In this document: positions 2,103 to 32,615 of the stretch, piece by piece | Position numbering within the stretch: the stretch's first letter is position 1 | How the letters are laid out: each line of letters opens with the position of its first letter | Source: a virus | DNA: 33,990 nucleotides | Reading direction: 5' to 3' (one strand) | Virus record (IMG/VR): IMGVR_UViG_3300020200_000089 | Location: 1 to 33,990 of that record | Program-made: the position numbers and the translations under genes | The notes under the pieces: model-generated | What the model saw: only the letters and a program-made list of their open reading frames with translations | Told to the model about the DNA's origin: nothing | Databases searched by the model: none

Positions 2103-2118
2103 AAATTTGTCCTTTACC
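2103..2118 (+). promoter_or_regulatory. Late-promoter-like motif, copy A (head operon)
   Basis: AAATTTGTCCTTTACC contains the 13-mer TTTGTCCTTTACC, which also occurs at 10005-10017 and 32603-32615. Its TTTG, with an A four bases before it, resembles the Bacteroidota -7 element TAnnTTTG with the leading T missing. The motif ends 29 nt before the ATG at 2148, nearly the same spacing as the other two copies. I infer a phage late promoter; no clear -33 TTTG was found. Confidence 0.55.
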
Positions 2119-2147
2119 AACCCCGCATTAATAAAAATATTTGCAAC

Positions 2148-3050
2148 ATGAGTTTCAACCATACACTCAGCGCCGTACTAAGGGGCCGGTGGATGTTGCA
2201 GAGGGAATGGGCCGAAGCTCACTACCCATTAGTTCTTTCTTTATTGCAGGGCAAACCCATTTCATTTTTTGATCGTACCGGTAATGAACAGGTGGAACTA
2301 CCTTTTGCCATTGACCCCAAAACCATGCGGCGTTTTGAACTGTTTGGTATCTATGGAAAACCCAATGCAAACATCCCACCCGGTTCTGTTGGGGTACTCC
2401 CCATCAGCGGACCCATTACCAAATACAACGGCCAGTGCGGCGAACCCGGCGCCATACAGCGCAGTGCCTGGCTGGTCGATATGCAGCGGCGTGAAAACAT
2501 AAGCAGCGTGGTACTCCTGCTGGACACACCCGGCGGCGAAGCCAGAGCAGCCAACGGACTAACCACCGCCATCGGCCAAATGAAAAAACCCGTACTGGCT
2601 TATGTGGACGGTATGGCCGCCAGCCTGGGTCTGTGGATTACCGCAGCGGCAGATGAAGTGTACCTCGGCAGTAAAACAGATGAGATGGGAAGTGTCGGAA
2701 GTTTTGTAATGATACCCGATATGCTGGCTTGGTACGAAAGCCAGGGGTTGAAAGTGCATGAAATATATGCGCCGCAAAGCACCGACAAAAACAAAGATTA
2801 CCGGGATGCCCTGAAAGGAGATTATGAAGCTGTGAAAAAAGACTTGGCTGTGTATGTGAATGAATTTATCGGCTTCATAAAAACACAAAGGCCGAAGGTT
2901 GCCGCCACACAGGCGGAGTGGGACAGCGGCAAAATGTTTTATGCCGCCGATGCCATAAAACTGGGCCTTGCAGACGGTATAAGAAGTTTTGAACAAACCA
3001 TACAGAAAGCCGCCTGGAATGCGGCCCGACATAAAAAGAAGATGATTTAA
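2148..3050 (+). CDS. Head maturation protease, S49 (SppA/ClpP-fold) family
   Basis: A 300-residue phage protease. The S49 core runs from about residue 80 (GSVGVLPISGPI) to 275. DTPGGE at 126-131 forms the oxyanion-hole region, and Ser159 in DGMAASLG is the predicted nucleophile. K214 or K216, about 55 residues later, would be the general base of a Ser/Lys dyad, a spacing close to that in short SppA proteins. There is no signal peptide, which separates it from cellular SppA. In phage heads this family trims scaffold and capsid during assembly; a candidate scaffold and the capsid gene follow directly. First gene after promoter-like copy A. Confidence 0.88.
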   Translation: MSFNHTLSAVLRGRWMLQREWAEAHYPLVLSLLQGKPISFFDRTGNEQVELPFAIDPKTMRRFELFGIYGKPNANIPPGSVGVLPISGPITKYNGQCGEPGAIQRSAWLVDMQRRENISSVVLLLDTPGGEARAANGLTTAIGQMKKPVLAYVDGMAASLGLWITAAADEVYLGSKTDEMGSVGSFVMIPDMLAWYESQGLKVHEIYAPQSTDKNKDYRDALKGDYEAVKKDLAVYVNEFIGFIKTQRPKVAATQAEWDSGKMFYAADAIKLGLADGIRSFEQTIQKAAWNAARHKKKMI

Positions 3051-3059
3051 ACCAATACC

Positions 3060-3482
3060 ATGATGGAAAATAAGTTTGAAAACATAACCGCATTGGTGCC
3101 CGAAGGCGAGTATTTTGATGCCGCCGCAGTTAATGAAGGCGTTTTTCTTACTGGAAACCACCTTGTAAATATTGAAGCCAGCCTGGCCGGTCAGCAATCC
3201 GCCACAGCAGCTATGCTGCAGCAGGTGGATGGCGCCAACCAAGCAGCCACCGATGTGCAAGCAAAACTGGACACCGCCACCCAAACTATAACCGAAAAAG
3301 AAGCCACCATCAAGCAACTGCAGGATGAGGTAGCTGCCTTAAAAGCCAAACCTGCCAGCGATTTTAAAGAAAGCGGCAAAGAAAAAGATGAACATGGCGG
3401 CGGGGCCGTAGCGGAACTCAGTGAAATAACCAAAGAAGCAAACCAAAAGCGGGCAGCTATGGGCCTTCCGCTTATAAAATAA
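3060..3482 (+). CDS. Candidate capsid scaffold protein
   Basis: A 140-residue protein. About residues 40-95 are Ala/Gln/Lys/Glu-rich with a heptad-like coiled coil (TATQTITEKEATIKQLQDEV). A charged, low-complexity linker and a short C-terminal helix ending in PLIK follow. The size, the coiled coil and the position between an S49 protease and the capsid protein are typical of scaffolds. Two adjacent ATGs (3060, 3063) are possible starts. The role is inferred from position and composition. Confidence 0.6.
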   Translation: MMENKFENITALVPEGEYFDAAAVNEGVFLTGNHLVNIEASLAGQQSATAAMLQQVDGANQAATDVQAKLDTATQTITEKEATIKQLQDEVAALKAKPASDFKESGKEKDEHGGGAVAELSEITKEANQKRAAMGLPLIK

Positions 3483-3517
3483 TTTCATTAATCTAAACCT
3501 TTTAAAAACAATAAAAG

Positions 3518-4408
3518 ATGCCAACCTACACTTTTACAAACCTTGAAACAGCCTTTGTAGGTGCTGCTTCAGTGTTTCAAAAACAACTTCTTGGCTGGGA
3601 TATTGCTGAAGCCGGCGTGGAGTTACGAACCAACGTAACCACCCCACAGGCTATGGCAAAGTTTGCAACCAACGATGGCCCGCAGCCCTACCGTAAGCAG
3701 GATGATTTTGATGCCGGTACTTTTACTGACCGCACACTCACAGCTTTTCAGGCTAAGTATGATCAGGAACTGGACCCAGAAGATTTCCGCAACACCTATC
3801 TGGCCACCCTGCCAGAAATGCCGTTTGAGCAGTATGCGGTTGAGCATGCCGGTAAGCGTTTCTTAGATGCGCTGATGCGCAGCACCCTGTACCTTGGTGT
3901 GCGTGATGCTACCGGCACCGCCGCCGTGGATATATGCAATGGCTGGGGCACCATTATAGCCGCTGAAATTGCGGGCGCCACCATAACCCCCGTAGTTACC
4001 GGAGCTATTACCAATGCAAACGCAGTAACCAAAGTGGAAGATGTATATGATGCCAGCGATGTTATCCTGAAAAGGATGCCATCCAAAATGTATTGCTCAT
4101 ACAATCTTTTCCGTAAATATATGCAGCACTACCGCACCCTAAACGGCTTTGGATTTAAAAGGGATGAAAAAGGGAGATATACGCTGGATGGCACCGATTG
4201 CGAACTGACACCTGTGGCCTTTATGGGCACCAGCAGCCGGTTAATTATGACACTGCCCGGCAACCTGGTGTTTGGTACGGACACCGGCGGCCTTACCAGC
4301 CACCCCACCCGCCACCTGAACCTGCTGCGCAACAGAATACTGTTTCCTGCAGGCTGCCAGATAAAAGATATTGGTGCGGAAGTTCTGGTGGTTAACGATC
4401 AGGCATAA
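3518..4408 (+). CDS. Major capsid protein, HK97-fold candidate
   Basis: A 296-residue protein directly after protease and scaffold candidate, the usual position of the major capsid gene. Features include an acidic/aromatic central part (ELDPEDFRNTYL), a long Ala/Thr-rich stretch, and a C-terminal part with the strand-like pattern of capsid P-domains (SSRLIMTLPGNLVFGTDTGG, IGAEVLVVNDQA). No catalytic motif is present. A strong hairpin directly after its stop could raise or isolate its mRNA level, as expected for the most abundant virion protein. The fold assignment is inference. Confidence 0.75.
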   Translation: MPTYTFTNLETAFVGAASVFQKQLLGWDIAEAGVELRTNVTTPQAMAKFATNDGPQPYRKQDDFDAGTFTDRTLTAFQAKYDQELDPEDFRNTYLATLPEMPFEQYAVEHAGKRFLDALMRSTLYLGVRDATGTAAVDICNGWGTIIAAEIAGATITPVVTGAITNANAVTKVEDVYDASDVILKRMPSKMYCSYNLFRKYMQHYRTLNGFGFKRDEKGRYTLDGTDCELTPVAFMGTSSRLIMTLPGNLVFGTDTGGLTSHPTRHLNLLRNRILFPAGCQIKDIGAEVLVVNDQA

Positions 4409-4461
4409 AATAAGCGAAGGGTCGGTGGCTGGAACTGGTTTACCCATCGGCCCTCCTTATT
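4409..4461 (+). terminator. Strong hairpin after the capsid gene (attenuator or mRNA stabiliser)
   Basis: AATAAG (4409-4414) pairs with CTTATT (4456-4461). Inside, GGGTCGGTGG pairs with CCATCGGCCC through ten pairs including G-T wobbles; a small internal loop separates the stems. The next bases are AAAAAATATTTTT, so the T-run comes only after an A-run. It could act as a partial terminator that raises capsid over downstream tail transcripts, or as a 3' stabiliser. Confidence 0.55.
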
Positions 4462-4477
4462 AAAAAATATTTTTCAA

Positions 4478-4675
4478 GTGGCCACAAAAAAAACAAATGC
4501 CGAAACCCTTGCGGTTAATGAATTTAAACTGGATGGTAAAAAATACCGGTTCACCATTACCCGCTTCAGTGTGCCAGGTTTTGATGAAAGCACCCCGTTG
4601 GAGGCAAAAACCAATAAGGAGCTTTTAAAATACCTTTTAGCTGAAAAATCGGGGGTTATTGAAGAAATTGCCTGA
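4478..4675 (+). CDS. Small hypothetical virion-region protein
   Basis: A 65-residue Lys/Glu-rich protein with the start GTG at 4478. It reads MATKKTNAE, then a strand-like segment (FKLDGKKYRFTITRFSVPGF) and a C-terminal helix. It lies between the capsid hairpin and a putative tail protein, where head-tail joining or small decoration proteins often sit. No family motif recognised. Confidence 0.6.
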   Translation: MATKKTNAETLAVNEFKLDGKKYRFTITRFSVPGFDESTPLEAKTNKELLKYLLAEKSGVIEEIA

Positions 4676-4703
4676 CAAATTTGTAACCTTTAAAACTTAA
4701 AAT

Positions 4704-5246
4704 ATGCCTCTATACGCAAACATTACAACCGCCACACAGCCCAATAAAGATGGGGGCTATAAACCAACCCTCTTTTTTAGCCCCTTGGGTGATATTACCA
4801 CCTGGCAATACCCTACCGGCGCCGGCCTGGTACTGGGCGATTCAACAAATATCGCCATCGCACATACCTGGGCCGCCAACAAAGGCGCCTACCAGTGGGA
4901 AACAAAGATCGGCAGCGTAAAACTGACCGCCGATACCCAGGGTGATGAAGGCGCTAAAGTACCTGTGTGGAAGGCCGAAATAGAAATAATGGGCTTTGAT
5001 GCCGCCACCGTGGAGCAAATGGTAAACTCCCTGAACGATCAAAAAGCGATCTGGCTAAAAGACAGCAACTGTATTACCGCCAACCAAAATGTGCAGATGG
5101 GTGATGAGTGCAACCCCGTAACCGTAAGCTGGACCTTTGACGGCAAAGACAGCCTGCCCACCAGCACCGGCACAAAAGGTTTTATTGTAACCATTCTCAG
5201 CAAAAAACTGTACACCTACACCGCTGTAATTGACACCACCTTTTAA
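4704..5246 (+). CDS. Putative virion structural protein, possibly tail tube
   Basis: A 180-residue, beta-rich protein with few charged helices (Gly/Thr/Asp-rich, many alternating hydrophobics, ending YTYTAVIDTTF). Size and predicted beta content suit a tail tube protein of a long-tailed phage, and it lies upstream of the tape measure gene as tail tube genes usually do. The call is positional; a decoration protein is an alternative. Confidence 0.55.
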   Translation: MPLYANITTATQPNKDGGYKPTLFFSPLGDITTWQYPTGAGLVLGDSTNIAIAHTWAANKGAYQWETKIGSVKLTADTQGDEGAKVPVWKAEIEIMGFDAATVEQMVNSLNDQKAIWLKDSNCITANQNVQMGDECNPVTVSWTFDGKDSLPTSTGTKGFIVTILSKKLYTYTAVIDTTF

Positions 5247-5265
5247 CATCTAATCTCTGACACCT

Positions 5266-5502
5266 ATGGCCGAAACAATCATAAGAAAACAGTTTACAGA
5301 TAAAGAAGTGTCCGAAAAGTATGAGTATGGTGGCAGCTGGGATGCAAACGGAAAAGAAAAAAGAATTGTATTTGTAGGGGTATATGATGGCCTGCTGGTG
5401 GATATAACCGCCGCCACCGCCGAAAAATTACTGGGAGTAAAATACCCCGGCCTCAAAGCAAAAAGCAAAATATTAAAGGTGCCGGAATCCCCAAAAGCGT
5501 AA
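5266..5502 (+). CDS. Small hypothetical protein in the tail operon
   Basis: A 78-residue protein starting MAETIIRKQF, with a central region VFVGVYDGLLVDITAATAEKLLG and a basic C-terminus. It follows the putative tail tube gene by 19 nt, and an intrinsic terminator follows its stop. No recognisable motif. Position resembles that of small tail-assembly proteins, but this is not evidence of function. Confidence 0.6.
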   Translation: MAETIIRKQFTDKEVSEKYEYGGSWDANGKEKRIVFVGVYDGLLVDITAATAEKLLGVKYPGLKAKSKILKVPESPKA

Positions 5503-5525
5503 TCCCGGCACCCTATAAAAAAACG

Positions 5526-5561
5526 AAGCCCCAACCCGTAAAGGGCAGGGGCTTTTTTATT
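5526..5561 (+). terminator. Rho-independent terminator within the tail region
   Basis: AAGCCCC (5526-5532) pairs with GGGGCTT (5548-5554), an inner CCC/GGG pair sits around a GTAAA loop, and TTTTTTATT follows. This is a textbook intrinsic terminator, only a few bases before the next gene at 5568. Downstream tail genes must use read-through, antitermination or another promoter. Confidence 0.8.
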
Positions 5562-5567
5562 AAACCT

Positions 5568-6017
5568 ATGGCGCTATCTTTTGAAATACAAAATCAGCAG
5601 GTACAGCAATGGGTTACCGATACCGGCTTAGAACTGCAGCTAACCGGCACCAGCTACGGCATTACTCACCGGCAAAACAGCCCCAGCCCATTAGCCAGCC
5701 TGCCCAAAGTAAAAGGCCGCATACTGCTGGTTGATGGCAGCCCCAAAGCCATAAAGTTTACCGTGCCCCGCCACCTGTTTTATGTACACCACGGCGCCGG
5801 CAAAGGGCAGGGCGGCAGCAAGGGCAGCCGCTGGATCACCGCCTACGGCATACGCAAACAAACCAACCCAAAAAGCCTGGGCAAGGCCGGCGCCGGCAAC
5901 CGCAGGGAAAAACCATTTATTAAAGAAACGCTGGGCAGGCGGGTGCCCATACTGGCCGATATAGTGGCCACCACCGGCGCCTCCATTGTAACATCAGCAA
6001 TAAAATTTAACCCGTAA
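5568..6017 (+). CDS. Putative tail completion / HK97 gp10-like protein
   Basis: A 149-residue basic protein. It has Gly/Lys-rich stretches in the middle and a C-terminal part (REKPFIKETLGRRVPILADIV) resembling the end of HK97 gp10-type tail completion proteins, where a PF-x-x-x-L segment precedes a terminal helix. It starts 7 nt after the terminator T-run and ends 2 nt before the tape measure ATG, so it is coupled to tail assembly. The family call is tentative. Confidence 0.5.
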   Translation: MALSFEIQNQQVQQWVTDTGLELQLTGTSYGITHRQNSPSPLASLPKVKGRILLVDGSPKAIKFTVPRHLFYVHHGAGKGQGGSKGSRWITAYGIRKQTNPKSLGKAGAGNRREKPFIKETLGRRVPILADIVATTGASIVTSAIKFNP

Positions 6018-6019
6018 CT

Positions 6020-9000
6020 ATGGCACAGGTTGAAAACAGGCAGGTAATCGTTGAAATAGTGGCGGATGATGTGGTAAAGGCGCAGGAAATCCTCTATGCT
6101 AAACAAAAAAAGCTGAATGAGGAAATAAAGAAAACCAACGACCCAAAAGCCATTGCAGATTTTAATAAACAGCTAAAATTCACTGAGCAGCAAATACAGC
6201 GAAATGAAAAAGTGCTGAAGGGCGAACTGCTGCCCACCTTTAACCAGCTTAGTGCATCCGCAAAAAGATGTGCCGCTGAGTTTAAAAAAACCGGCGATCC
6301 TGAAGTATTGCGCAAGTACCACGAAGTAAACAATGTCCTTGGACAGATGAAAAGTGAAATGGCCGGACTTGCAAAACAAAGCCAGGGGCTTACCCAGAGC
6401 GGCATATTTTCAGAGGGCAGCGCAAAGATTATAGTGGGTGCTATGGAACAGGCAAAGGATAAGGTTGTTAAGCTGGAAAACGAATTTGGCAAACTATCAC
6501 CCCAGGCTTCAGAGGCAAGGAAAGAACTAAGTGCATTAAGCCTCATCACTCAGAACCCCAAGTTTTTAAATATTGCTTCCCGGGTGGGGGATGCAAACCA
6601 GGAATTGGGATTTTTTACTAAAACGCTTATTGAATTAGAGGACGCCGGCCTTAAAAACACCGAAGTTTACCGTGATGTACAGGCAAGATTGGCGCAATTA
6701 ACAGACCAAATTAGCGACACAAAGCAAGAGGTAAGGGCTATGGCCTCAGACACAAGGGGATTTGACCTTTTTGCGGGTGCCGTTTCGTTTACTGCCGATG
6801 TATTTCAAACCGCAGCCGGTGCAGCCTCTTTATTCGGCGCAAGTCAGGAAGATGTGACCAAAGCAATAAAAAACCTTATGGCCATACAGTCAGTAGCCAA
6901 TGGCGTTAAGGGAATCGCAATCCAATTTACCCAAAAGGGAACATTCGCCAACAAACTATTTACTTTTTCTCAGAACCAGTTGACAATAGCGGTGTCGGCA
7001 AGCTCAACAGCCTTTCAGAGGCTAAGGGCTATACTGATAACAACCGGAATCGGTGCTTTGGTGGTAGGTGTTGGCCTGTTGATAGCCAATTTTCAAAAGC
7101 TAAAAGACCTTTTTTCGGGTGTCAGCGCCTCACAAAAGAAGATGAACGATGCCTTGATAGAGGGTTCTAAGAACGCCGCAGCCGAAAGAAACAACCTTGA
7201 ACTGCTGTATAATGCCGCAACCAATACGGCAAAAGGTATAGATGCTCAGAAAAAAGCCGCAAAGGAGCTTCAGGATACCTATCCCTTAACCTTTGCCAAC
7301 TTCACTGCTGAGGAAATTGCACTCGGAAAAGCAAAAACGGCTTATGAAAGACTATCTCTAAGCATCCTTGCGGCATCATTAGCTAAAGCCAAACAGGCTA
7401 CAATCGACAAGGACGCCATGGATTTTGCTGAGAAAGACAAAAGTCTTGATATTGAAATTGACAAGCTTGAAAAGAAAAAAGCCCTTGCAAGTAGTGCCAA
7501 GAGGGAAATTGAAGATCTTGGCGAAAATAGAAGACGGTTAATAACGGTTGATGAAAAACAGGAAATTCAGAATCAGATTAATACGCTAAACATTAAAAAA
7601 GAGAATCTTAAAAAGGCTTTTTATGAAAATAACAAGATGTTCGCTGACTCCGTGGCTAAAGATAAAAAAGAAGCCGAAGAAGCTGAAAAAAATGAGGATG
7701 AGCGCATAAAAAGGAAGAATGAACAGGACCGACTAAAAAACCTAAGAGAACAGGCCCTTAAACATGCCGCTGAACAACGCAAACAATTATTAAAAGAGCT
7801 TTCCGAGTTCGAATTCAAAGAATCTATACGAGGATTGAGTGATTTAGGTGCTGCTTTGGTTGTTCTGGGAAAAAACTTTGACAAATTAAGGGAAATGGCA
7901 AAAGGAGATCAAGAGATAATAAAACGCATTAATCTAATTTTTGGAAAAGAACGGCTGGCCCTGATACGGGATTTTAACACGGCATTATTTACAAAAATCT
8001 TAAAAGACAGAGCGGATCAAATGGGCGCCATTGAAGAAGTAGAATTAAAAAAGTTCATGAAAAGACAAGAGGATTTCGTAAAATTCCGAAAAAAACTTTT
8101 AGATGATTTAGATGAAAGTGCAGAAAAATCAGAACGCAACCGAATGGCGGGGTTTGAATTAGATGTAGTACAAAAAAAGGGGAGAGCCCGGATGAAGGCT
8201 GAAAAGAAATTCCTTAACGAACAGGAAAAAAAAGAACTTTCCAACAAAAATCTAACCGAAAATGAAAAAACGCTGATTCAAGAAAAGTACAAGCAAAAAA
8301 GAACTGAAGTCGAAGAAAATTATTTAAAACGTGTTGTTGAATTAACGGCTGAACATACAGACAAGTTATTTAATATATGGGGTGCTTTTGCCACCGCCCG
8401 AACCAATAAAGAAAATGCTGAACTGGCCGCAGACCGCCGCCGCAATGATATAAAAGAGAGGAATCTGGCTGCCCGGCTTCGTAAAGGCCTTATCAGCGAG
8501 AAAGAATATAATAGGCAGATTGATGAACTGAAAAATAAGCAGGATGCAAAAGAAAAAGAATTTGCCGTTAAACAGTTTAAGAGAAACCAGCGCATTGCCA
8601 TCATGCAGGCCATCGTTAACGCTGCGATGGGAATTATGAGCACCTATTCGGCAAGGCCAGGATTGGCAGATATTTTTACGCTGGGGGTTGCCCGGGCGAT
8701 AGAGGTTGCTATTATTACGGCCAGCCTGGCCGCACAAATAGCCACCATCAAAAGCCAAAAACCACAATTTTCCAAAGGCGGTGTACTGGGTGGCCGCACC
8801 CATGCACAGGGCGGCAATGCCATTGTAGATGGCAGCGGCCGCAAGATTGCTGAAATAGAAGCGGGGGAGGGCATCATTAACCGCCGCACTATGGCCGATA
8901 AAAAAGTGTACCACTTTACCGGCACCCCCAGCCAGGTGGCCAGCTATATGAACAGTATGCATGGCGGCGTAAGCTGGAGCAAAGCCGCTAAGTATATGAA

Positions 9001-9187
9001 CTACGGCGCCATTAACAAAAGATATTATGAAGGCGGGGGTGTGTTTGGCAGCGGTAGTGATGGGCTTGCCCTGCAGCGGCTGAATGAGATTTTAGAGAAA
9101 GGCATCCAGGCATACCTGGTTTATAGCCATTTTGAAACGCAGCAGGATCGCATAAACAGGATCAGGGCCGATGCCCGGCTCAAATAG
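6020..9187 (+). CDS. Tail tape measure protein
   Basis: The largest gene (1055 residues). It has long charged coiled coils at about residues 15-120, 380-640 and 680-860, a hydrophobic segment near 336-358 (ILITTGIGALVVGVGLLIANF), and a second at about 857-910 (IAIMQAIVNAAMGIMSTYS). The Gly-rich C-terminal part (FSKGGVLGGRTHAQGG, then EIEAGEGIINRRTM) is a pattern I know from Bacteroidota tape measure proteins. The protein sets tail length and may enter the cell envelope with the DNA. Length implies a siphovirus-like tail. The central coding part looks AT-richer than both ends, suggesting mosaic exchange. Confidence 0.92.
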   Translation: MAQVENRQVIVEIVADDVVKAQEILYAKQKKLNEEIKKTNDPKAIADFNKQLKFTEQQIQRNEKVLKGELLPTFNQLSASAKRCAAEFKKTGDPEVLRKYHEVNNVLGQMKSEMAGLAKQSQGLTQSGIFSEGSAKIIVGAMEQAKDKVVKLENEFGKLSPQASEARKELSALSLITQNPKFLNIASRVGDANQELGFFTKTLIELEDAGLKNTEVYRDVQARLAQLTDQISDTKQEVRAMASDTRGFDLFAGAVSFTADVFQTAAGAASLFGASQEDVTKAIKNLMAIQSVANGVKGIAIQFTQKGTFANKLFTFSQNQLTIAVSASSTAFQRLRAILITTGIGALVVGVGLLIANFQKLKDLFSGVSASQKKMNDALIEGSKNAAAERNNLELLYNAATNTAKGIDAQKKAAKELQDTYPLTFANFTAEEIALGKAKTAYERLSLSILAASLAKAKQATIDKDAMDFAEKDKSLDIEIDKLEKKKALASSAKREIEDLGENRRRLITVDEKQEIQNQINTLNIKKENLKKAFYENNKMFADSVAKDKKEAEEAEKNEDERIKRKNEQDRLKNLREQALKHAAEQRKQLLKELSEFEFKESIRGLSDLGAALVVLGKNFDKLREMAKGDQEIIKRINLIFGKERLALIRDFNTALFTKILKDRADQMGAIEEVELKKFMKRQEDFVKFRKKLLDDLDESAEKSERNRMAGFELDVVQKKGRARMKAEKKFLNEQEKKELSNKNLTENEKTLIQEKYKQKRTEVEENYLKRVVELTAEHTDKLFNIWGAFATARTNKENAELAADRRRNDIKERNLAARLRKGLISEKEYNRQIDELKNKQDAKEKEFAVKQFKRNQRIAIMQAIVNAAMGIMSTYSARPGLADIFTLGVARAIEVAIITASLAAQIATIKSQKPQFSKGGVLGGRTHAQGGNAIVDGSGRKIAEIEAGEGIINRRTMADKKVYHFTGTPSQVASYMNSMHGGVSWSKAAKYMNYGAINKRYYEGGGVFGSGSDGLALQRLNEILEKGIQAYLVYSHFETQQDRINRIRADARLK

Positions 9188-9202
9188 CGCACTACAGAGG
9201 CA

Positions 9203-9223: not shown

Positions 9224-9227
9224 TATA

Positions 9228-9344
9228 TGCCTACAAAAAGGGGGGGGCTGCCTACAAAAAAGGGGGGGGCGATACCATGTTTTTGATATAAGTAATTTAT
9301 TTTCATATTGTTATGTTGTAGGCAGTTGTAGGCGGTGTTTTTAG
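9228..9344. repeat. 117-bp palindromic-ended element, copy 1 (inverted relative to 27975-28091)
   Basis: One end (9228-9247, TGCCTACA, five A-positions and eight Gs) is the exact reverse complement of 28072-28091. The other end (9316-9344) matches the reverse complement of 27975-28003 at 28 of 29 positions. Both copies have 68 nt between these ends. Each carries GCCTACA units facing TGTAGGC units across an AT-rich centre, so it can fold back on itself. This copy has two G8 runs (9240-9247, 9262-9269). Origin, regulatory element and small mobile repeat are all possible. Confidence 0.8.
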
Positions 9345-9381
9345 GTTTGGTGGGGGCTGGGTTTATTTTAAATATTTTTTT

Positions 9382-9389: not shown

Positions 9390-9390
9390 T

Positions 9391-9532
9391 GTTGCACAAT
9401 AGATATATTAGGTACTTAGAAGCAACGCAATCACTAATCAACAATAAGCCTCCACGGGCCGGTAAGACCGGTAAACTCGCAATGCTTCTAAAAGTATTTG
9501 TCTGTTGTGCAGCGTGGAGGTTTTTTCTTATT
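9391..9532 (+). ncRNA. Candidate pseudoknotted leader RNA / ncRNA with intrinsic terminator
   Basis: Stems seen by eye: P1, GTTGCACAATAGA (9391-9403) with TCTGTTGTGCAGC (9501-9513), 13 pairs including two G-U. P2, TACTT+AGAAGCA (9413-9424) with TGCTTCT+AAGTA (9483-9496), 12 pairs with a two-A bulge. P3, CCGGT/ACCGG (9459-9471). P4, CCTCCACG (9449-9456) with CGTGGAGG (9513-9520), followed by six Ts. The 5' strand of P4 lies inside the P2 loop while its 3' strand lies outside P1, so P4 makes a pseudoknot with P1/P2, or P4 alternates with them as a terminator. The P1 3' strand can also pair for 11 bp with 9547-9557, covering most of the next ATG. It fits either a cis-regulatory leader of the gene at 9546 or a separate ~135-nt RNA. 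I match it to no known family. Confidence 0.6.
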
Positions 9533-9545
9533 AAACCTTTAAAAC

Positions 9546-9902
9546 ATGCGCAACAGACATGGTTTACTCCCCAAAGAAGCCGACCGTATTTTAGAAAGCA
9601 TTACCGAAGCATGGAACAGTAAAATTGCTGAGGCAGAGCAAACCTCCATTAACCAGCCCATGCAGGGCCACAGCCGCCGCCACTACCAGGCCATTATGGC
9701 GGCCCTTATTTGTCTGCAGGCGGACTATAGTTACGAAGAAATACTGCACTGCCTGCAATTACAAAGTTGTGAAAACAGTATATTAATACTATACAGCGAA
9801 AGCAGTAAAGAGGCTAAAGAACAAATACTGCGGTTTAACATGATGGCGGCATCCCTTATGCGGCTGTTCCAGTTTTTGCAAGCCTATACTTTCAAAAAAT
9901 AA
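9546..9902 (+). CDS. Hypothetical helical protein downstream of the structured RNA
   Basis: A 118-residue, mainly helical protein starting MRNRHGLLPKEADRIL. The middle part (RRHYQAIMAALICLQADYSYEEILHCLQLQS) could contain a helix-turn-helix-like fold, but this is weak. The start overlaps sequence complementary to P1 of the upstream RNA, which suggests its translation is controlled by that RNA. It is separated from the following operon by a hairpin and promoter-like copy B. One possibility is a regulator of late transcription; there is no direct evidence. Confidence 0.6.
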   Translation: MRNRHGLLPKEADRILESITEAWNSKIAEAEQTSINQPMQGHSRRHYQAIMAALICLQADYSYEEILHCLQLQSCENSILILYSESSKEAKEQILRFNMMAASLMRLFQFLQAYTFKK

Positions 9903-9910
9903 TATGCAAT

Positions 9911-9935
9911 AAAAAAGCCCCGTGGAAACGGGGCT
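9911..9935 (-). terminator. GC-rich hairpin with U-run on the minus strand
   Basis: AGCCCCGT (9916-9923) and ACGGGGCT (9928-9935) pair around GGAA. Six As precede it on the plus strand, so the U-run needed for intrinsic termination would be on a minus-strand transcript. The plus-strand side continues CGGAATAC, not T-rich. It lies between the gene at 9546 and promoter-like copy B, and may still slow plus-strand polymerase. Confidence 0.55.
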
Positions 9936-10000
9936 CGGAATACTTCAAAAGACGTTAAGAATTTTTGTACTACGAATATAACAATAATTATAAAAATTAC

Positions 10001-10017
10001 GAACTTTGTCCTTTACC
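10001..10017 (+). promoter_or_regulatory. Late-promoter-like motif, copy B (portal operon)
   Basis: GAACTTTGTCCTTTACC contains the 13-mer shared with copies A and C, 31 nt before the ATG at 10049. GAACTTTG differs from TAnnTTTG at one base. Upstream sequence (9961-10000) is very AT-rich. A perfect AGGAGG lies at 10022-10027 in the leader, but 21 nt from the ATG, farther than normal. Confidence 0.55.
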
Positions 10018-10048
10018 CAACAGGAGGTAACCAATAATTTGCCTTTCT

Positions 10049-10372
10049 ATGAGCCAAACCGTAATTACCCGCTGGGAGGCGGTGCAGGAAATTAACAAGG
10101 GCTTGGCCTGCACTGTTGAATATGTGGAGTGCAACCGCACCAAAGGCACCGGCGGCAAACTGGTAAAGCTAACCAACTGGGCAAGGCTTACCAAAGACCT
10201 TGAACCGGGCGGGCTGGCGGGTATGTACCAAAGCAAAGAAACCTGGGAACGGCAGCATAATACGCTGAACCGGGAAATTATTATGCTATACAACCCCACA
10301 AACAACATGCAGCACCCAAAGCCGGTGCATTATTGGCTGCTTTGCAGCTTGAACTGTAAACGTATTGTATGA
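10049..10372 (+). CDS. Hypothetical protein preceding the portal gene
   Basis: A 107-residue protein with Lys/Gly-rich central part (CNRTKGTGGKLVKLTNWARL) and a C-terminus ending CSLNCKRIV. It overlaps the portal ATG in an ATGA arrangement, so it is translationally coupled to it. The AGGAGG at 10022-10027 would be well spaced for a non-standard ATT start at 10037, in frame, but ATG 10049 is preferred. No motif recognised; head-related by position only. Confidence 0.65.
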   Translation: MSQTVITRWEAVQEINKGLACTVEYVECNRTKGTGGKLVKLTNWARLTKDLEPGGLAGMYQSKETWERQHNTLNREIIMLYNPTNNMQHPKPVHYWLLCSLNCKRIV

Positions 10373-11790
10373 CAAACGGAATATATTTTGGCAGAAACAG
10401 CCGGGCCGCTTTTATTGACATGGAAGGCGCCGATGCCGCCATGCCGGCCCGCCCCATGCGGGAAAAACCACTGAGAAGTGATGATTACAAGTACATGCCC
10501 TGGAGCCCCTGGGGCGATGATAACCTGAAACCCCAAAAAATGTTGGATGATATTAAAAAATGCGCCAGCCTTACTGGAATAATCGGTATTAAAAGCCGCC
10601 TGGCTTTATGTGAAGGGTTGGTGCCCGCTATTGTTACAAGCGGCGAAACCGGCACCCGTATTATTGATAAGATTGTGGAAGATGAAGAAATAACGGAGTT
10701 CCTGGAAGCCAGTAACCATTTTTATCAAACCGCCGGGTGGATGGAAGATATTATCGGCCTGGCCAATGGCGCCTGCCGCTGGATGGTCAATAAAGAAGGC
10801 ACTAAAATAGCCGCCTTTAAGCGGCAGGATATGAGTGAGGTGCGGTATCAAAAACGGGGCCAGGATGGTTACATCAGCAATGTGTACATCAGCGCTGAGT
10901 GGGATAGGGTTTTTGCTGAAAAAAATGAACAGGTATTTACCCTGCCGCTATTAACAGATTGGGCGCCCTGGCACCATGCAAAAGAACTGATGGGTGGCAA
11001 TATAAAAGAATTTGTAAGCACCTTTCGCTACCCGGGCCGGGGTGAGCATTACTACAGCACCCCAAAATGGTATGCAGCATACAAATGGGTAAAGTATTGC
11101 CAGGCGGTGCCCGAAATAAAAGCAGCCCATGCGGACATCGCCATGCGGCCGGCTTACATGGTTACTGTTTATAAAGAATTTTGGCCCGCCATGTATGAGG
11201 ATTGGGATACTATTACCGACCCGGCTGAAAAGCAGACGAAGAAAGCCGCCCTGTTTGATACCATTGATGATAAACTTTCCGGTAAAGCCAATGCCGGAAA
11301 AAATATTTATGTGGGCGGCGAACTGAATATGGAATTTGGCAGGGCTATGGCCTTCATGGAAATAAAAGCAATGGAACAACCCAAAATTGATGGCGCCATG
11401 CTGCCGGATGCCGCTGCGGGTAATACTGAAATTGCCATTGCCGAAATGATGAACCTGGCCCTTGTGGGCGGCAACCAAAGCGATGGCCCCTATACTAAAA
11501 ACGAAGGCGGCAGCAGCATACGGGAAGCCAGCCTTTTCCAGGTGGTGCTGACAGAACTGGAAAGGCGGTTTATAAAAAACCTGATGAATATACCCAAGTA
11601 TGTGAACGAATGGCATAAAAAACATCCCGGGCTTGAGTTTATTATTCCTGCCACAGCATTAACCACTTTGGACACCGGCGGCGGCAGCAAGCCGGTAATT
11701 ACCGGTGGGGTACAACCTAAAACAAATAACAATGGCGCTAATAACAACGGTAACGGAGGTGAAGGCAACCCACCCCCGGCTGCTGAATAA
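10369..11790 (+). CDS. Portal protein
   Basis: A 473-residue protein with the overall pattern of Bacteroidota phage portals. An N-terminal segment (SPWGDDNLKPQKMLDDIKKC) is followed by a membrane-distal helical core. A later segment (GRGEHYYSTPKWYAAYKWVK) matches the conserved portal pattern in which the chain crosses the wing and stem. The C-terminal tail is Asn/Gly/Pro-rich and disordered. Portals form the dodecameric ring through which DNA is packed and released. The gene lies far downstream of protease and capsid genes, an unusual order. Its end overlaps the next gene by 59 nt. Confidence 0.82.
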   Translation: MTNGIYFGRNSRAAFIDMEGADAAMPARPMREKPLRSDDYKYMPWSPWGDDNLKPQKMLDDIKKCASLTGIIGIKSRLALCEGLVPAIVTSGETGTRIIDKIVEDEEITEFLEASNHFYQTAGWMEDIIGLANGACRWMVNKEGTKIAAFKRQDMSEVRYQKRGQDGYISNVYISAEWDRVFAEKNEQVFTLPLLTDWAPWHHAKELMGGNIKEFVSTFRYPGRGEHYYSTPKWYAAYKWVKYCQAVPEIKAAHADIAMRPAYMVTVYKEFWPAMYEDWDTITDPAEKQTKKAALFDTIDDKLSGKANAGKNIYVGGELNMEFGRAMAFMEIKAMEQPKIDGAMLPDAAAGNTEIAIAEMMNLALVGGNQSDGPYTKNEGGSSIREASLFQVVLTELERRFIKNLMNIPKYVNEWHKKHPGLEFIIPATALTTLDTGGGSKPVITGGVQPKTNNNGANNNGNGGEGNPPPAAE

Positions 11791-25623: not shown

Positions 25624-25626
25624 CCC

Positions 25627-27978: not shown

Positions 27979-28091
27979 AAACACCGCCTACAGCTGCCTA
28001 CAAAATAATAACATAAAAATCAATTAATTATAATAAAAATGTTGTAGGCATGCTTAAAATTTGTAGGCACACCCCCCCTTTTTGTAGGCAT
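27975..28091. repeat. 117-bp palindromic-ended element, copy 2; candidate origin
   Basis: Same length and ends as copy 1 at 9228-9344, in opposite orientation. Two GCCTACA units face three TGTAGGC units across a very AT-rich core (about 28004-28040). Iterons around an AT-rich core, directly after a replicative ATPase gene, resemble a replication origin. The element contains the stop of that gene and the ATG at 28050, so it encodes the first ~13 residues of the methyltransferase. Confidence 0.75.
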
Positions 28092-29240
28092 GGATCTTTA
28101 TTTAGCGGTATTGGCGGTTTTGATTTAGCTGCTGAATGGATGGGATGGGAGAATGTATTTCACTGCGAGTGCAATTCCTTTGGGCAGAAGGTTCTAAAAC
28201 ACTACTGGCCTCAGGCAGAATCTTTTAACGATATAACAAAAACAGACTTTACAAAATATGCAAACAGAATTGATGTTCTCACAGGAGGATTCCCCTGCCA
28301 ACCGTATTCAATGGCTGGAAAGCGAAAGGGCAAAGAAGATGACCGGCATCTCTGGCCTGAAATGCTTAGAGCAATTAGAGAAATTCAGCCAGGTTGGGTT
28401 GTGGGCGAAAATGTTTTCGGCCTTATTAATTGGTCAGGGGGATTGGTTTTCCATGAGGTGCAGGCTGACCTGGAAGCTGCGGGGTACGAAGTTTGGCCGT
28501 ATGTACTTCCAGCTTGTGCCAAAAACGCACCCCACCGAAGGGATAGGGTCTGGTTTGTTGCCCATCTTACCAACCCCGACAGCAATGGACAGCAGCGGGG
28601 CAACGGCAAATATGAAAAGCACACAGGTGAAGGAGGGGAGTATGCACAGCGTAACATTAGCCAGGGCGGTGAATATGGGCTTACTCCCGACCCCACAGGC
28701 GAATTGCAGCAAGGGTATGAACCCGGAAAATATACAACAGAAGGGCGGCAAGTTTTACAACAAGAAAACGGGGACGCAAATTCAAAGCAGTCCGGAACAA
28801 TGGGCGAAAATGGGTTTACTTCCGACACCGACAACACAGGAAGCGGAAACGAATTGCGAACTGACGGAAACGGGGAGACGGAAAACAAAGGACGGGGAGG
28901 ACAGCCACAGCCTGAATCTTGGCAGGATGGCAACGATGGGATTTCTACCGACACCAACGGCACAACTTACAAAACACGGACACACGGAACAATATTGGAA
29001 CAACAGAATTGGGAAAAGGCAAATGGATTTATCAATGTGGAATGCAGAAACAAATGGCAAAACTTCCCAACTCAATCCCCGGTTTGTGGCGGAAATGATG
29101 GGCTTCCCCGAAAATTGGACGGAATTACCTTTTCAAAATGGAGAAACGAAAGCATAAAAGCCTATGGTAATGCAATAGTCCCCCAGGTAGCCTTTGAAAT
29201 TTTTAAAGCAATAGAGAGTGTCCACAGGCATTGCCCATAA
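28050..29240 (+). CDS. dcm: DNA (cytosine-5) methyltransferase, C-terminal half overlapped by a second gene
   Basis: A 396-residue C5-cytosine methyltransferase. Motif I is GSLFSGIGGFD (15-25), the catalytic Cys83 lies in GGFPCQPYS, motif VI is GENV (119-122), motif VIII is PHRRDRVWFVAH (161-172), and motif X near the end is AYGNAIVPQVAFEIF. The region between VIII and X (about 175-350) is low-complexity, Gly/Asn/Glu/Thr-rich and repetitive. It is unlike a normal target-recognition domain, which fits its DNA being constrained by the nested frame at 28258-29157. It probably protects phage DNA from restriction. The first ~13 residues come from the 117-bp element. No better in-frame start exists. 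Confidence 0.9.
   Translation: MLKICRHTPPFCRHGSLFSGIGGFDLAAEWMGWENVFHCECNSFGQKVLKHYWPQAESFNDITKTDFTKYANRIDVLTGGFPCQPYSMAGKRKGKEDDRHLWPEMLRAIREIQPGWVVGENVFGLINWSGGLVFHEVQADLEAAGYEVWPYVLPACAKNAPHRRDRVWFVAHLTNPDSNGQQRGNGKYEKHTGEGGEYAQRNISQGGEYGLTPDPTGELQQGYEPGKYTTEGRQVLQQENGDANSKQSGTMGENGFTSDTDNTGSGNELRTDGNGETENKGRGGQPQPESWQDGNDGISTDTNGTTYKTRTHGTILEQQNWEKANGFINVECRNKWQNFPTQSPVCGGNDGLPRKLDGITFSKWRNESIKAYGNAIVPQVAFEIFKAIESVHRHCP
28258..29157 (+). CDS. Nested gene in the +1 frame of dcm, LLPTPT-repeat protein
   Basis: A 299-codon frame wholly inside dcm, from ATG 28258. The sequence looks truly coding. The N-terminal part (MQTELMFSQEDSPANRI, then WAKMFSALLIGQGDW and CRLTWKLRGTKFGRMYFQLV) is a pattern I know from Bacteroidota phage proteins. 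It is followed by four spaced motifs of the kind GLLPTPT (LPILPTPTAMD, GLLPTPQAN, GLLPTPTTQ, GFLPTPTAQ) and a C-terminus LNPRFVAEMMGFPENWTELPF, often seen next to or fused to dcm-type genes. It may act with the methyltransferase, for example in target recognition; this is inference. The antisense frame 28385-28963 is a shadow. Confidence 0.7.
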   Translation: MQTELMFSQEDSPANRIQWLESERAKKMTGISGLKCLEQLEKFSQVGLWAKMFSALLIGQGDWFSMRCRLTWKLRGTKFGRMYFQLVPKTHPTEGIGSGLLPILPTPTAMDSSGATANMKSTQVKEGSMHSVTLARAVNMGLLPTPQANCSKGMNPENIQQKGGKFYNKKTGTQIQSSPEQWAKMGLLPTPTTQEAETNCELTETGRRKTKDGEDSHSLNLGRMATMGFLPTPTAQLTKHGHTEQYWNNRIGKRQMDLSMWNAETNGKTSQLNPRFVAEMMGFPENWTELPFQNGETKA

Positions 29241-29478
29241 CGCAAAAGGGGTTGGCGAAGTTTCTTTTTTGGGGACTTCAACCACCACAGCCGAAACAAA
29301 GAAACACAGTTTAATAAACCGATAAACTATGATAGAATTACTAACCCCCCAAAAAAGAAATTTTGCTAACCTAATTGTTATGCACAGTTGCTTCCACTAC
29401 ACTTCAATCGGAGGACAAGAAAAAACAAAGAAAAAATTTTACGGGAGGGGTGCGTTGGCATCTTTTAAAAAACAAAAT
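29241..29478 (+). other. Intergenic region between dcm and helicase, with attC-like pairing
   Basis: No convincing gene. An in-frame ATG at 29329 would add 50 residues to the helicase, but that extension lacks the look of the family. GGTT-GAAGT and ACTTC-AACC near 29250-29290 can form a hairpin. CATAAC (29236-29241) and GTTATG (29377-29382), with inner GTTGGC and GCTAAC, give an arrangement loosely like an integron attC site, though the outer boxes match the consensus imperfectly. Confidence 0.35.
29437..29460 (+). repeat. Left flank repeat of the helicase-methyltransferase cassette
   Basis: TTTTACGGGAG, then GGGTG, then CGTTGGCA. The same sequence with one mismatch and without the 5-nt GGGTG lies at 31858-31876, directly after the methyltransferase stop. 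The direct-repeat pair brackets the two-gene cassette. Confidence 0.5.
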
Positions 29479-30855
29479 ATGAACTATACAGAATTTTTAG
29501 AAAACAAAAAACACTCTGCAAGTAATTACGGAATTGAACCAACATTCATTCCTGATGCAATGTTTGATTATCAAAAGTATGTTACCGAATATCTGATTAG
29601 AAAAGGTCGTGCAGCTTGTTTCCTTGATACTGGATTAGGCAAAACAGTAATTGAATTGACTGTTGCAAAAAACTACATCCAGCACACAAATAAACCAGTG
29701 CTGATTATTTGCCCTTTGGCAGTTGCATTTCAGTTTATCAAAGAAGCAGAGAAATTTGGCATTGATGATATTTCTTATTCAAAGGATGGAAAGTATAAAA
29801 CAAAGATTGTTGTTTGCAATTACGAAAGGTTAGAACATTTTGAGCCAACTGATTTTGATTGTGTTATGTTAGATGAAAGTTCTATTCTCAAAAACTTTGA
29901 AGGGGCAACGAAACAACACATCACTACCTTTTTAAAGAAAGTAAAATACAGATTTCTTTTTACTGCGACACCAAGCCCGAATGATTATATTGAATTGGGA
30001 ACAAGTTCAGAGGCGTTGGGATATATGGGTTACACTGATATACTAACAAGGTTTTTTAAGAATAATAATAACACTATAAAAAGTTCAGGTTTGCATCGTG
30101 CAGGGGAAGAATGGTATTTGAAACCTCATGCCGAAAAAGATTTTTGGAAATGGATTGCGTCATGGAGTATTTCAATGCGTAAACCTTCGGACATTGGTTT
30201 TAGCGATGCACTCCACATTTTGCCAAAACTTATTGAGATTGAAACAATAGTCGCAAACTCAAACCCACTTGCAATAAACGGACAAACGCAAATGTTCAAT
30301 TTCCCTGCGGTTAATTTCTTTGAGATAAAAGCAGAAGTCCGGGCAACAATTAAAACCCGTTGTGAAATGGCTTTTGAAAAGGCAACTGACCATGATGCAA
30401 GTGTTTATTGGGTAAACTTGAATGATGAAGCAAGTTTGATTTCACAATTGGACAAAGAAGCACAGGAGGTAAAAGGGCAAATGGATATTGATAAAAAAGA
30501 AGAAATACTACTTGCATTTTCAATGGGAGAAATAAAAAAACTGATTACCAAAACTTCAATTACTGCCTTTGGTTTGAATTGGCAACACTGCAACCACACA
30601 ACATATTTTCCAACTTATTCTTATGAGCAATACTACCAAGCAATAAGAAGGTTTTGGAGGTTCGGGCAAAAAAGAGAAGTGTTTGTTGATTTGATTTTAA
30701 GCGATGGACAAACACGAATAATGCAAAGTTTGCAAGTGAAAAAAGACAAAGCAATTTCAATGTTTGAAAATCTAACCGCAAACACCAACAGCAACTTTGA
30801 AATAAAGACAAAAGAATTTAACAAAGAAATAATTTTACCAAACTTCATAAACTAA
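29479..30855 (+). CDS. SNF2/DEAD-like helicase of a modification cassette
   Basis: A 458-residue protein from ATG 29479 (MNYTEFLENKKH), the start I judge typical for the family; ATG 29329 is possible but would include the flank repeat. Motifs: Q-like FDYQKYV (29-35), Walker A D50-TGLGKT (56), motif II L131-DESS, motif III FTATPSPN (161-168), and a late motif VI region (YYQAIRRFWRFGQK). These are the features of superfamily 2 DNA translocases. The next gene is a DNA methyltransferase 6 nt downstream. Together they may act in DNA modification or defence avoidance. Base composition is clearly more AT-rich than the phage core. Confidence 0.85.
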   Translation: MNYTEFLENKKHSASNYGIEPTFIPDAMFDYQKYVTEYLIRKGRAACFLDTGLGKTVIELTVAKNYIQHTNKPVLIICPLAVAFQFIKEAEKFGIDDISYSKDGKYKTKIVVCNYERLEHFEPTDFDCVMLDESSILKNFEGATKQHITTFLKKVKYRFLFTATPSPNDYIELGTSSEALGYMGYTDILTRFFKNNNNTIKSSGLHRAGEEWYLKPHAEKDFWKWIASWSISMRKPSDIGFSDALHILPKLIEIETIVANSNPLAINGQTQMFNFPAVNFFEIKAEVRATIKTRCEMAFEKATDHDASVYWVNLNDEASLISQLDKEAQEVKGQMDIDKKEEILLAFSMGEIKKLITKTSITAFGLNWQHCNHTTYFPTYSYEQYYQAIRRFWRFGQKREVFVDLILSDGQTRIMQSLQVKKDKAISMFENLTANTNSNFEIKTKEFNKEIILPNFIN

Positions 30856-30861
30856 AACACA

Positions 30862-31845
30862 ATGATTAAAGAACAAGTTATCAAAGAAAATTACGCAATC
30901 TACAACGCTGATTGCATGGATGTAATTCAAACCTTGCCTGATGCAAGTATTGATTTATCGGTTTACTCCCCTCCGTTCGCTGGGTTGTATAATTATTCCA
31001 GTAGCGAAAAAGATTTTTCAAACTGTGAAAGCAAAGAACAATTTTTGGAGCAATACGAATTTTTAGTAAAGCAAATGTCAAGGGTTACAAAAACAGGTAG
31101 AATAAACGCTGTGCATTGCACAGATGTTTTTGATAACCGTTCTTTTCTTTGGGATTTTCCGCATGAGATTATCCGCATACATGAGAAATACGGTTTTCAT
31201 TATCGTAATAGAATTACGATTTGGAAAGAACCTTTGAAAGTTCGCATGAGAACAATGGTGCAAAGTTTAATGCACAAATTTATTGTTGAAGATAGCACAA
31301 GATGTTTTACGGCTATGCCTGATTATGTTTTGATATTTACAAAGGATGGTGATAGTTTAGTTCCTGTAACACATGAAAAAGGATTTACAGAATACTTTGG
31401 CGAAACTCCATTTTTACCCGCACACATTGAAACTTACGGCAACTATGAGGACTTTAAAAAGAAGTGGAAAAATTATGATGGTGAACCAAGCGGAAACAAG
31501 ATGAGCCATTTGATTTGGCAGCGTTACGCAAGTTCGGTTTGGGATGATATTAGAATTGATAATGTTTTGCCATTCAAAGAAAGCCGTGAGGAAGATGATG
31601 AAAAGCATGTTCACCCTTTGCAGTTAGATGTTATTGATAGAATAGTTGAACTATACAGCAACAAAGGCGAATTAGTATTTACTCCATTTATGGGAGTTGG
31701 TTCGGAAGTTTATAGCCCGATTTCACTCGGTAGAAAAGGATTAGGTGTTGAGTTGAAAGATAGTTATTTTAAACAGGCAGTAATGAATATGAAAGATGCT
31801 GAAACAAGGTTCAAAAAGTTTGAACAAACTACTTTAACCTTTTAA
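30862..31845 (+). CDS. DNA methyltransferase, N4-cytosine/N6-adenine class
   Basis: A 327-residue methyltransferase. Catalytic motif IV is S36-PPF (39) in DLSVYSPPF. The SAM-binding motif I comes late (FTPFMGVGS, about 276-280), then GLGVELKDSYF. This is the order of the beta class. SPPF does not decide between N4-cytosine and N6-adenine methylation. It is preceded by the helicase with a 6-nt gap and shares its AT-rich composition. Likely self-protection of phage DNA from host restriction, possibly coupled to the translocase. No restriction endonuclease gene is nearby. Confidence 0.88.
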   Translation: MIKEQVIKENYAIYNADCMDVIQTLPDASIDLSVYSPPFAGLYNYSSSEKDFSNCESKEQFLEQYEFLVKQMSRVTKTGRINAVHCTDVFDNRSFLWDFPHEIIRIHEKYGFHYRNRITIWKEPLKVRMRTMVQSLMHKFIVEDSTRCFTAMPDYVLIFTKDGDSLVPVTHEKGFTEYFGETPFLPAHIETYGNYEDFKKKWKNYDGEPSGNKMSHLIWQRYASSVWDDIRIDNVLPFKESREEDDEKHVHPLQLDVIDRIVELYSNKGELVFTPFMGVGSEVYSPISLGRKGLGVELKDSYFKQAVMNMKDAETRFKKFEQTTLTF

Positions 31846-32103
31846 AAATTGGAACAATTTTATGGGAGCGTTGGCAAAATTTTTTCTTTGTTTGCTGAAA
31901 ATCAAAAACTTAAAAATAGTATTGACGGCTATCGGAGTTTCGTTAATCCACGGACCCATCCCAAATTAAGATCATCCAACGGGCTAAGTATTTACAATAT
32001 ATCCCGGTTGGTTACATGCACATAACCGTTTTGCGGATTGACGAAGGAGGCGGAATTAGATACGAATAAAACGATATTTACGAAAACTATTAAATTTGCA
32101 ACA
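31846..32103 (+). other. Intergenic region after the modification cassette
   Basis: No gene supported. It contains the right flank repeat (31858-31876), a weak AT hairpin at 31845-31861 (AAAATTG/CAATTTT), and TAAATTTG at 32091-32098, a perfect match to the -7 consensus TAnnTTTG directly before the next gene. The part 31890-32040 looks like leftover sequence from an insertion, but nothing identifies it. Confidence 0.4.
31858..31876 (+). repeat. Right flank repeat of the helicase-methyltransferase cassette
   Basis: TTTTATGGGAGCGTTGGCA matches 29437-29460 except for one substitution and a missing 5-nt insert. With its partner it brackets 29461-31857, the AT-rich cassette. Confidence 0.5.
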
Positions 32104-32568
32104 GTGAACCAGCTACATATCCAGGCCGCCCCACACATCAAAAAATACATTGATGCCACCCTGGGCCACCCCGTACAGTTGCACCAGCGCAGCACCATCC
32201 ATGCCGCCCTGTATGCCGCCATCTTCCACAGCAGCCAACTGCAGGTATTTACCGAAAAAGAACAACGGCCACTTCCCTGCACCATCATCATCCAGGCCCC
32301 CCCCGAAAAATCCATCAACCCCAAAAACCTGCTGGAAAAAACCCGCATCACCACCCATTTTTTTGAAAACCTGTTTCTTGAAAACCTGAAAAAACACATG
32401 GATGCGCAGCCCATAAAAATAAACCGCCGCAAAGGCGCTCATAATATAAAATACCAACTGGCAGAGTTTTGCAGCCGCTATGAAATAATTATTAACCAGG
32501 ACATCACCGAAGATGCCCTGATAAAAAGGTACTACCGCTACCGAAAATGGCTACAAGCCCCCAATTAA
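32104..32568 (+). CDS. Hypothetical protein, start uncertain
   Basis: About 154 residues when started at GTG 32104; the open frame extends to a TTG at 32038 without any in-frame ATG. A perfect TAAATTTG at 32091-32098 just before the GTG suggests transcription starts near or at the start codon, so a leaderless or very short-leader mRNA is possible. Alternatively the real N-terminus was lost when the upstream cassette was inserted. The sequence has a helical N-terminal part and a basic C-terminus (RRKGAHNIKYQLAEFCSRYE, RYYRYRKW). Composition returns to the phage norm here. Function unknown. Confidence 0.5.
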   Translation: MNQLHIQAAPHIKKYIDATLGHPVQLHQRSTIHAALYAAIFHSSQLQVFTEKEQRPLPCTIIIQAPPEKSINPKNLLEKTRITTHFFENLFLENLKKHMDAQPIKINRRKGAHNIKYQLAEFCSRYEIIINQDITEDALIKRYYRYRKWLQAPN

Positions 32569-32615
32569 CCAGTTAACCAAACCTAATAAACCATTTACAA
32601 TTTTTGTCCTTTACC
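32559..32615 (+). promoter_or_regulatory. Late-promoter-like motif, copy C, with shared upstream box
   Basis: CCCCAATTAACCA (32559-32571) is followed 31 nt later by TTTGTCCTTTACC (32603-32615), as in the head-operon upstream region, where the first copy of the same box lies 34 nt before the 13-mer. The motif ends 29 nt before the ATG at 32645. Confidence 0.55.

Follow-up and report, generated by a model that had tools for sequence, protein, structure and literature searches.

The virus record IMGVR_UViG_3300020200_000089, a linear IMG/VR record of 33,990 bases (the whole of which was analysed and is called the window here), appears to carry three copies of a late promoter that belongs to a class recurring in phages of the Bacteroidota. 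In this putative class a core, TGTCCTTT[A/C]C, is followed after 22 nucleotides (nt) by the TTTG of an A-n-n-TTTG box, and the combination stands ahead of late operons and on the late strand, the late class of genes being assigned by gene content. The predicted architecture of core, 22-nt spacing and -7 box is well supported by comparison of the sites. We also consider it probable that the reading as a whole is right, namely that these are late promoters and that the product of the gene at 32038-32568 is a MotA-like activator replacing the -33 contact.

The mechanism that we propose combines a host element with a phage element. The host primary sigma factor would read the AnnTTTG box, and a phage protein seated on the core (about -40 to -31) would hold RNA polymerase in the manner of MotA, taking over from the -33 contact. 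With the core lying over the -33 region and T(-12) absent from most sites, the promoter would be silent until the phage protein binds. The core-binding protein is most likely the 32038-32568 product, which may read the core through its C-terminal helical domain, and in the group to which the window belongs transcription would begin on the start codon or right beside it.

The element was noticed as a 13-mer, TTTGTCCTTTACC. Searching both strands of the window, we found exactly three copies (2106-2118, 10005-10017 and 32603-32615), all on the plus strand and separated by 29, 31 and 29 nt from the ATGs at 2148, 10049 and 32645; the reversed sequence has none, and chance would supply about 0.001 copies of any given 13-mer in two strands of 34 kilobases. 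The exact-match search thus bears out the original prediction that three same-strand copies lie at these distances ahead of late-gene starts. Exact matches to the 13-mer plus an ATG occur in at least 119 stretches of viral_contigs, with one copy in each and with two copies in none of the 80 listed, and most of their contexts look like chance, so that the 13-mer itself is a poor probe. The phage contig L268 has an array of TGTCCTTTA-like words around what is probably a chance match.

What the relatives keep is shorter and lies further along. In records related through the terminase or protease, the conserved element is TGTCCTTT followed mostly by A or C and then by C, and the same kinds of genes lie downstream. 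The bases ahead of TGTCCTTT vary, being ATTG in the near-identical locus L120, CCTG in L121, CTTG in the Niastella caeni prophage and ATTG in L141. In the first 13 aligned sites, judged by eye, the distance from this 10-mer to the start codon is 30 nt in ten cases and 31 or 32 nt in three, and TTT or TTTG occupies a fixed place between the two. The leading TTTG of the 13-mer had been taken for the -7 element, but L120, L121, L138 and L141 do not share it, and the notion of a shared mRNA 5' end inside TCCTTTACC is not supported. A further box, AATTAACCA, shared by the upstream regions of copies A and C, was found in none of the 396 loci fetched and is rejected as a part of the promoter. The word CCCCAATTAACCA occurs at 2059-2071 and 2083-2095, both upstream of promoter A, and at 32559-32571, upstream of promoter C; since its distances to the core are unequal and it too is found in 0 of the 396 loci, it is private to this record.

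To describe the geometry we pooled 84 non-redundant late-strand TGTCCTTT sites from 37 loci, duplicates being removed by site sequence and not by phylogeny. Many of these loci are metagenomic fragments and are related to one another; L121, L122 and L141 are without a member of the candidate activator family in hand, so their strand was set from their late genes, and L309 is a further stretch of the L138 record. A--TTTG, with at least four of its five bases matched at an offset of 21-23, follows 66 of the 84 sites against 14 of 336 background windows, and 61 of the 66 boxes lie at exactly 22 nt. Among the 35 unique late-strand sites in loci found through the candidate protein (see below) and aligned on the 8-mer core, TTTG lies at 22 in 25 and at 21-23 in 28, with A at offset 19 in 89% and T at offset 18 in 11%. 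In control loci, which are chance matches to the 13-mer, TTTG lies at 21-23 in 5 of 195 core sites.

The primary-sigma promoter of the Bacteroidota has been described as having TTTG at -33 and, as its -7 element, TAHHTTTG, whose initial T is at -12 and whose G is at -5; the start site follows the element by 4-5 nt (PMC6847099). To judge by its sequence, the AnnTTTG box appears to be this known -7 element, usually without the T(-12) that is near-invariant in Flavobacterium johnsoniae promoters (PMC6847099) and that occurs in 16 of the 66 pooled sites having a -7 box. With the G fixed at -5, transcription is predicted to begin at offset 30, and in many of these genes that is where the start codon lies; on this numbering the core spans about -40 to -31 and takes up the position of the -33 element. 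The predicted start coincides with an ATG or GTG that opens an open reading frame (ORF) of at least 60 codons in 27 of the 66 sites, and such a codon lies between -1 and +3 in 37. By the same published spacing rule, the late mRNAs of the window are predicted to be leaderless or nearly so, those from promoters A and C having no leader and that from promoter B one of about 3 nt. For comparison, about 3.7% of 5' untranslated regions in Bacteroides thetaiotaomicron are shorter than 10 nt (PMC7366714), and 5.5% of mRNAs in Flavobacterium psychrophilum are leaderless (PMC9723704).

At the tape-measure promoters of L236, L255, L259 and L264, the core lies within a near-perfect inverted repeat, TGTCCTTTCC-N10-GGAAAGGACA, that ends at the -7 box; such sites suggest that a dimer binds at some promoters. 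The pooled 84-site set contains no palindromes, because these four loci were outside it.

The same arrangement, a core ahead of a similar -7 box, can be followed into four cultured phages. TGTCCTTTT occurs on the late and other strands in a ratio of 6:0 in Polaribacter phage Leef_1, where it lies 30 nt ahead of the annotated starts of gp05 and gp46 and 32 nt ahead of gp02, and of 7:1 in Ingeline_1, where it lies 30 nt ahead of gp01 and gp29 and 32 nt ahead of gp07. The corresponding ratios are 4:0 for TGTCTTAAA in Flavobacterium phage 6H and 5:0 for TGTCACAA in Flavobacterium phage laban6-1, and in these two phages every core except one 6H site is followed at about the same offset by a TTTG, TTCG or TTG box. 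An annotated coding sequence begins within 110 nt of the core at 6 of 6 sites in Leef_1, 5 of 7 in Ingeline_1, 4 of 4 in 6H and 5 of 5 in laban6-1, against a fraction of 0.115-0.129 for random positions. The 10-mer is 40-59 nt from the start codon in 6H and laban6-1 and 30-60 nt in Leef_1, and for 6H and laban6-1 we predict the same promoter with leaders of about 10-30 nt. TGTC is common to the cores while the next four bases differ from one phage group to another, which fits a protein and its site changing together; the comparison involves two variant groups, too few for a statistical test.

Host genomes give a different result. The N. caeni genome has 28 matches to the 10-mer against 95 to the reversed pattern, and four of the 28 are in the prophage, on one strand. 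An even draw of 244 family genomes yielded 20 matches to the full pattern in 19 genomes against 38 for the control, two of the 20 being those of the N. caeni prophage. There is no enrichment of the core in either set, its counts lying under the reversed-pattern control, and the promoter made of core and -7 box is not a host promoter class. The suggestion of a phage-specific late promoter, probably needing a phage factor, is upheld by these counts and by the common strand and late genes of the relatives.

The best candidate for that factor emerged from a comparison of the ORFs of 14 records or fragments, in which families were named from position and from the gene annotation of the window. The families present in at least eight of the 14 are structural, packaging or primase families together with a single one of no known kind, that of 32038-32568, whose members are proteins of 165-200 amino acids encoded ahead of late genes. 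Ten of the 14 records have a member; the misses are G275 and the fragments L121, L122 and L141. From the end of the gene to the promoter core there are 36 nt in the window (promoter C), 17 nt in N. caeni (first core), 59 nt in L139 and several hundred nt elsewhere. A profile search found the family in loci of all the main subgroups and no member in the 119 chance 13-mer loci. Scanning viral_contigs with four family members returned 14 loci, and in every one of them the strand of the protein bears one or more cores with TTT at the -7 position. These loci hold 35 cores on that strand and four on the other, with TTTG at 21-23 in 28 of the 35; for 167 permuted 8-mers in the same loci the mean count is 3.6 (maximum 12), or 0.10 (maximum 3) where TTTG is included. 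Among the cultured phages, Leef_1 gp39 clearly belongs to the family (E = 1e-44 against a profile including it, 9e-22 against one made without it) and laban6-1 gp42 is a good member (E = 9e-13); the gene stands ahead of the protease gene in Ingeline_1 and directly ahead of a late promoter in 6H and laban6-1. The ORF at 9546-9902, suggested earlier as a place to look for the factor, is rejected, lying outside every family common to at least four of the 14 records. The original prediction thus stands as to the late promoter class and is not supported as to the TTTG as -7 element, the 5' end, the upstream box and 9546-9902.

Two AlphaFold models of the family (predicted local distance difference test scores 81 and 82; predicted template modelling scores 0.69 and 0.71) both combine an alpha/beta part at the N-terminal end with three helices at the C-terminal end. 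The sole invariant residue of A5 is an arginine, R143, in the last long helix, and the C-terminal part gives weak structural matches (Z 2-4) to homeodomains, TnpE, sigma domain 4 and other helix-turn-helix proteins; the residue and these matches are compatible with DNA binding by the modelled domain. A viral fold library gave one match under E 0.001, a 157-amino-acid Leef_1 protein that by its length and phage is gp39, already a family member.

Several observations weigh against this account. The activator role of 32038-32568 is assigned through linkage only, and the test on 14 loci is not wholly independent, because the query proteins were first seen at motif-bearing loci. The family has no relative above threshold in Pfam, NCBIfam or the PDB, fold searches in the PDB gave no confident match (Z below 5), and nine PHROG families each match one single family member weakly, the best at E = 9e-4. 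Two of the cultured phages have weak profile matches: 6H gp40 (E = 6e-6), which is nevertheless 35% identical to laban6-1 gp42, and Ingeline_1 gp41 (E = 4e-4). G271 combines a weak member (E = 8e-7) with few good sites. As to the promoter, 18 of the 84 pooled sites are without a good -7 box, Ingeline_1 has one core within an early gene and one on the opposite strand, and permuted words attain the real count in 13 of 2519 trials for 6H, 4 of 1679 for laban6-1 and 1 of 251 for Leef_1.

It could be that the promoter is as described and that its factor is some other phage protein, perhaps an early regulator resembling LuxR, a sigma-like protein or one so far unseen, with 32038-32568 a mere neighbour. 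The annotations of Leef_1 and laban6-1 include LuxR-like early regulators of about 190 amino acids, with relatives in Ingeline_1 and 6H (the four phages being loci L379, L380, L381 and L396) and in three prophages, G269, G270 and G272. They are rejected as the general factor: the window, the Niastella prophage, G268 and G274 hold 3 to 9 late-strand cores, and no LuxR-like relative was detected in any of them, while all the widely shared families of the 14 records other than that of 32038-32568 are plainly structural, packaging or primase ones. We think another factor unlikely. The inverted repeat of several tape-measure promoters has the look of a typical dimer operator placed over the -33 region, and the core might accordingly be bound by a repressor silencing the late genes of the prophage. 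Most sites have the left half alone of that repeat, the linked gene sits directly ahead of the late genes, and a -7 box that is usually substandard (T(-12) again) is a better fit to activation than to repression, all of which leaves a repressor highly improbable.

Two further explanations would change what the conserved bases do. If the TTTG of the 13-mer were the -7 element, transcripts would start inside TCCTTTACC and have a leader of 25-30 nt; TTTG is a literal match in the window, and B. thetaiotaomicron leaders commonly measure 23-32 nt (PMC7366714). We give this little credence, as the bases ahead of TGTCCTTT vary in relatives and it is TGTCCTTT and the downstream AnnTTTG that are kept, at fixed spacing. 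Alternatively the element might act in RNA, as a 5' leader or a translation signal at a set distance from the start codon, since that distance is 29-31 nt for 65 of 122 sites among the matches listed and for 29 of 48 in a second set. The motif scan behind the former figure comprised at least 122 sites, 47 of them without an ORF start in range, and has chance hits mixed in, so we do not use it as a rate; in a scan of 33 loci from 28 records, the records had been picked for bearing matches, the counts are not independent and some sites were counted twice. The fixed distance is that from core to -7 box and not that from core to start codon, which varies in 6H, laban6-1 and Leef_1 as given above, and in L139 (at 9472), L155 and L156 the core and TTTG keep their usual spacing with no start codon at 30. 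A signal in RNA is on these grounds hardly plausible, and a late promoter read with the help of a phage activator is the interpretation that we prefer.

Features of the window bearing on the proposed late promoters (all on the plus strand)
Feature	Position	Strand	Remarks
Promoter A, upstream core TGTCCTTTAC	2108-2117	+	putative replacement of the -33 element
Promoter A, -7 box AnnTTTG	2137-2143	+	TTTG at offset 22; predicted start at ATG 2148
Head maturation protease gene	2148-3050	+	PHROG 53, E = 3e-42; predicted to be driven by promoter A
Promoter B, core TGTCCTTTAC	10007-10016	+	
Promoter B, TTTG of -7 box	10038-10041	+	offset 21; predicted leader about 3 nt
Conserved small gene ahead of portal-like gene	10049-10372	+	family in 11 of 14 compared records; predicted to be driven by promoter B
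Candidate late activator gene	32038-32568	+	176 amino acids; last gene ahead of promoter C; C-terminal domain predicted to be helical and DNA-binding-like; new family
Promoter C, core TGTCCTTTAC	32605-32614	+	
Promoter C, -7 box AnnTTTG	32634-32640	+	offset 22; predicted start at ATG 32645
First late gene past promoter C, virion-like	32645-33448	+	32% identity over 163 amino acids to N. caeni counterpart

The other recognizable genes of the window, all on the plus strand, include a lysis-type gene and genes for terminase, primase, helicase, methylases and a recombinase. The N. caeni counterpart of 32645-33448 is the gene after the first promoter of that prophage. The portal label for 10369-11790 comes from synteny with Leef_1 and Ingeline_1, a search of PHROGs having given no match. 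A capsid-like query, 3518-4408, found no relatives, and the two open ORFs at the contig ends do not resemble one single gene. By eye, GC-rich hairpins at 2008-2036 and 9915-9936, upstream of promoters A and B, look like terminators of the preceding operon, and L138 and L141 have a similar arrangement. Also by eye, a G-rich near-repeat (CCTACAAAAA and then a run of G, twice) lies at 9228-9272, past the tape-measure gene, and the intergenic stretch at 9440-9530, ahead of ORF 9546-9902, has complementary arms (CCTCCACG and CGTGGAGG) and might form a structured RNA or act as a terminator.

Control of late genes is well known in phages of other phyla. For this group of Bacteroidota phages, no late promoter or activator was found in the open-licence PMC literature searched, and in the portions drawn upon of the paper on Leef and Ingeline the word 'promoter' is not present (PMC8776804). 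If our reading is true, a large group of uncultured viruses gains a rule by which late operons can be annotated, a gene now labelled hypothetical gains a candidate function, and phage-controlled promoters become available for the Bacteroidota; the question also arises why the virion genes here would be leaderless. The reading is testable in cultured phages. A bolder generalization, which we hold with about as much doubt as belief, is that of a phylum-wide late system in which one family of undescribed phage activators takes the -33 contact at TGTC-box promoters, the TGTC half having been kept and the other half (CTTT, TTAA or ACAA) having diversified along with the protein, and in which virion mRNAs are leaderless in much of the group, in hosts where such mRNAs are rare.

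Among known systems, the late activators of the C/Mor type in phage Mu are small proteins encoded just ahead of the late genes, with some sites that are inverted repeats, and the candidate described here resembles them in both respects. The Mor family is not among the Pfam matches of 19 family members at E up to 1. The likeness to the primary-sigma promoter of the Bacteroidota lies in A(-11) and TTTG (-8 to -5), at the right spacing and 4-5 nt ahead of the predicted start (PMC6847099), whereas the -33 TTTG is replaced here by the 10-base-pair phage core TGTCCTTT[A/C]C, T(-12) is mostly absent and the start lies on or near the start codon. The middle promoters of phage T4, an instance of sigma appropriation in which a host -10 element is joined to a MotA box that substitutes for the upstream contact with sigma (PMC2988021), differ in box sequence, host sigma factor, gene class (late here) and protein sequence; the MotA box is centred at -30 and the phage core here at about -35.5, and no AsiA-like partner was identified here. 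Searches of Pfam, NCBIfam, the PDB and PHROGs gave the 32038-32568 family no sequence match of this kind and MotA is not among the fold matches listed, though the two might nevertheless be related. What the two systems would share is their architecture, with a host element downstream and a phage box replacing the -35/-33 element.

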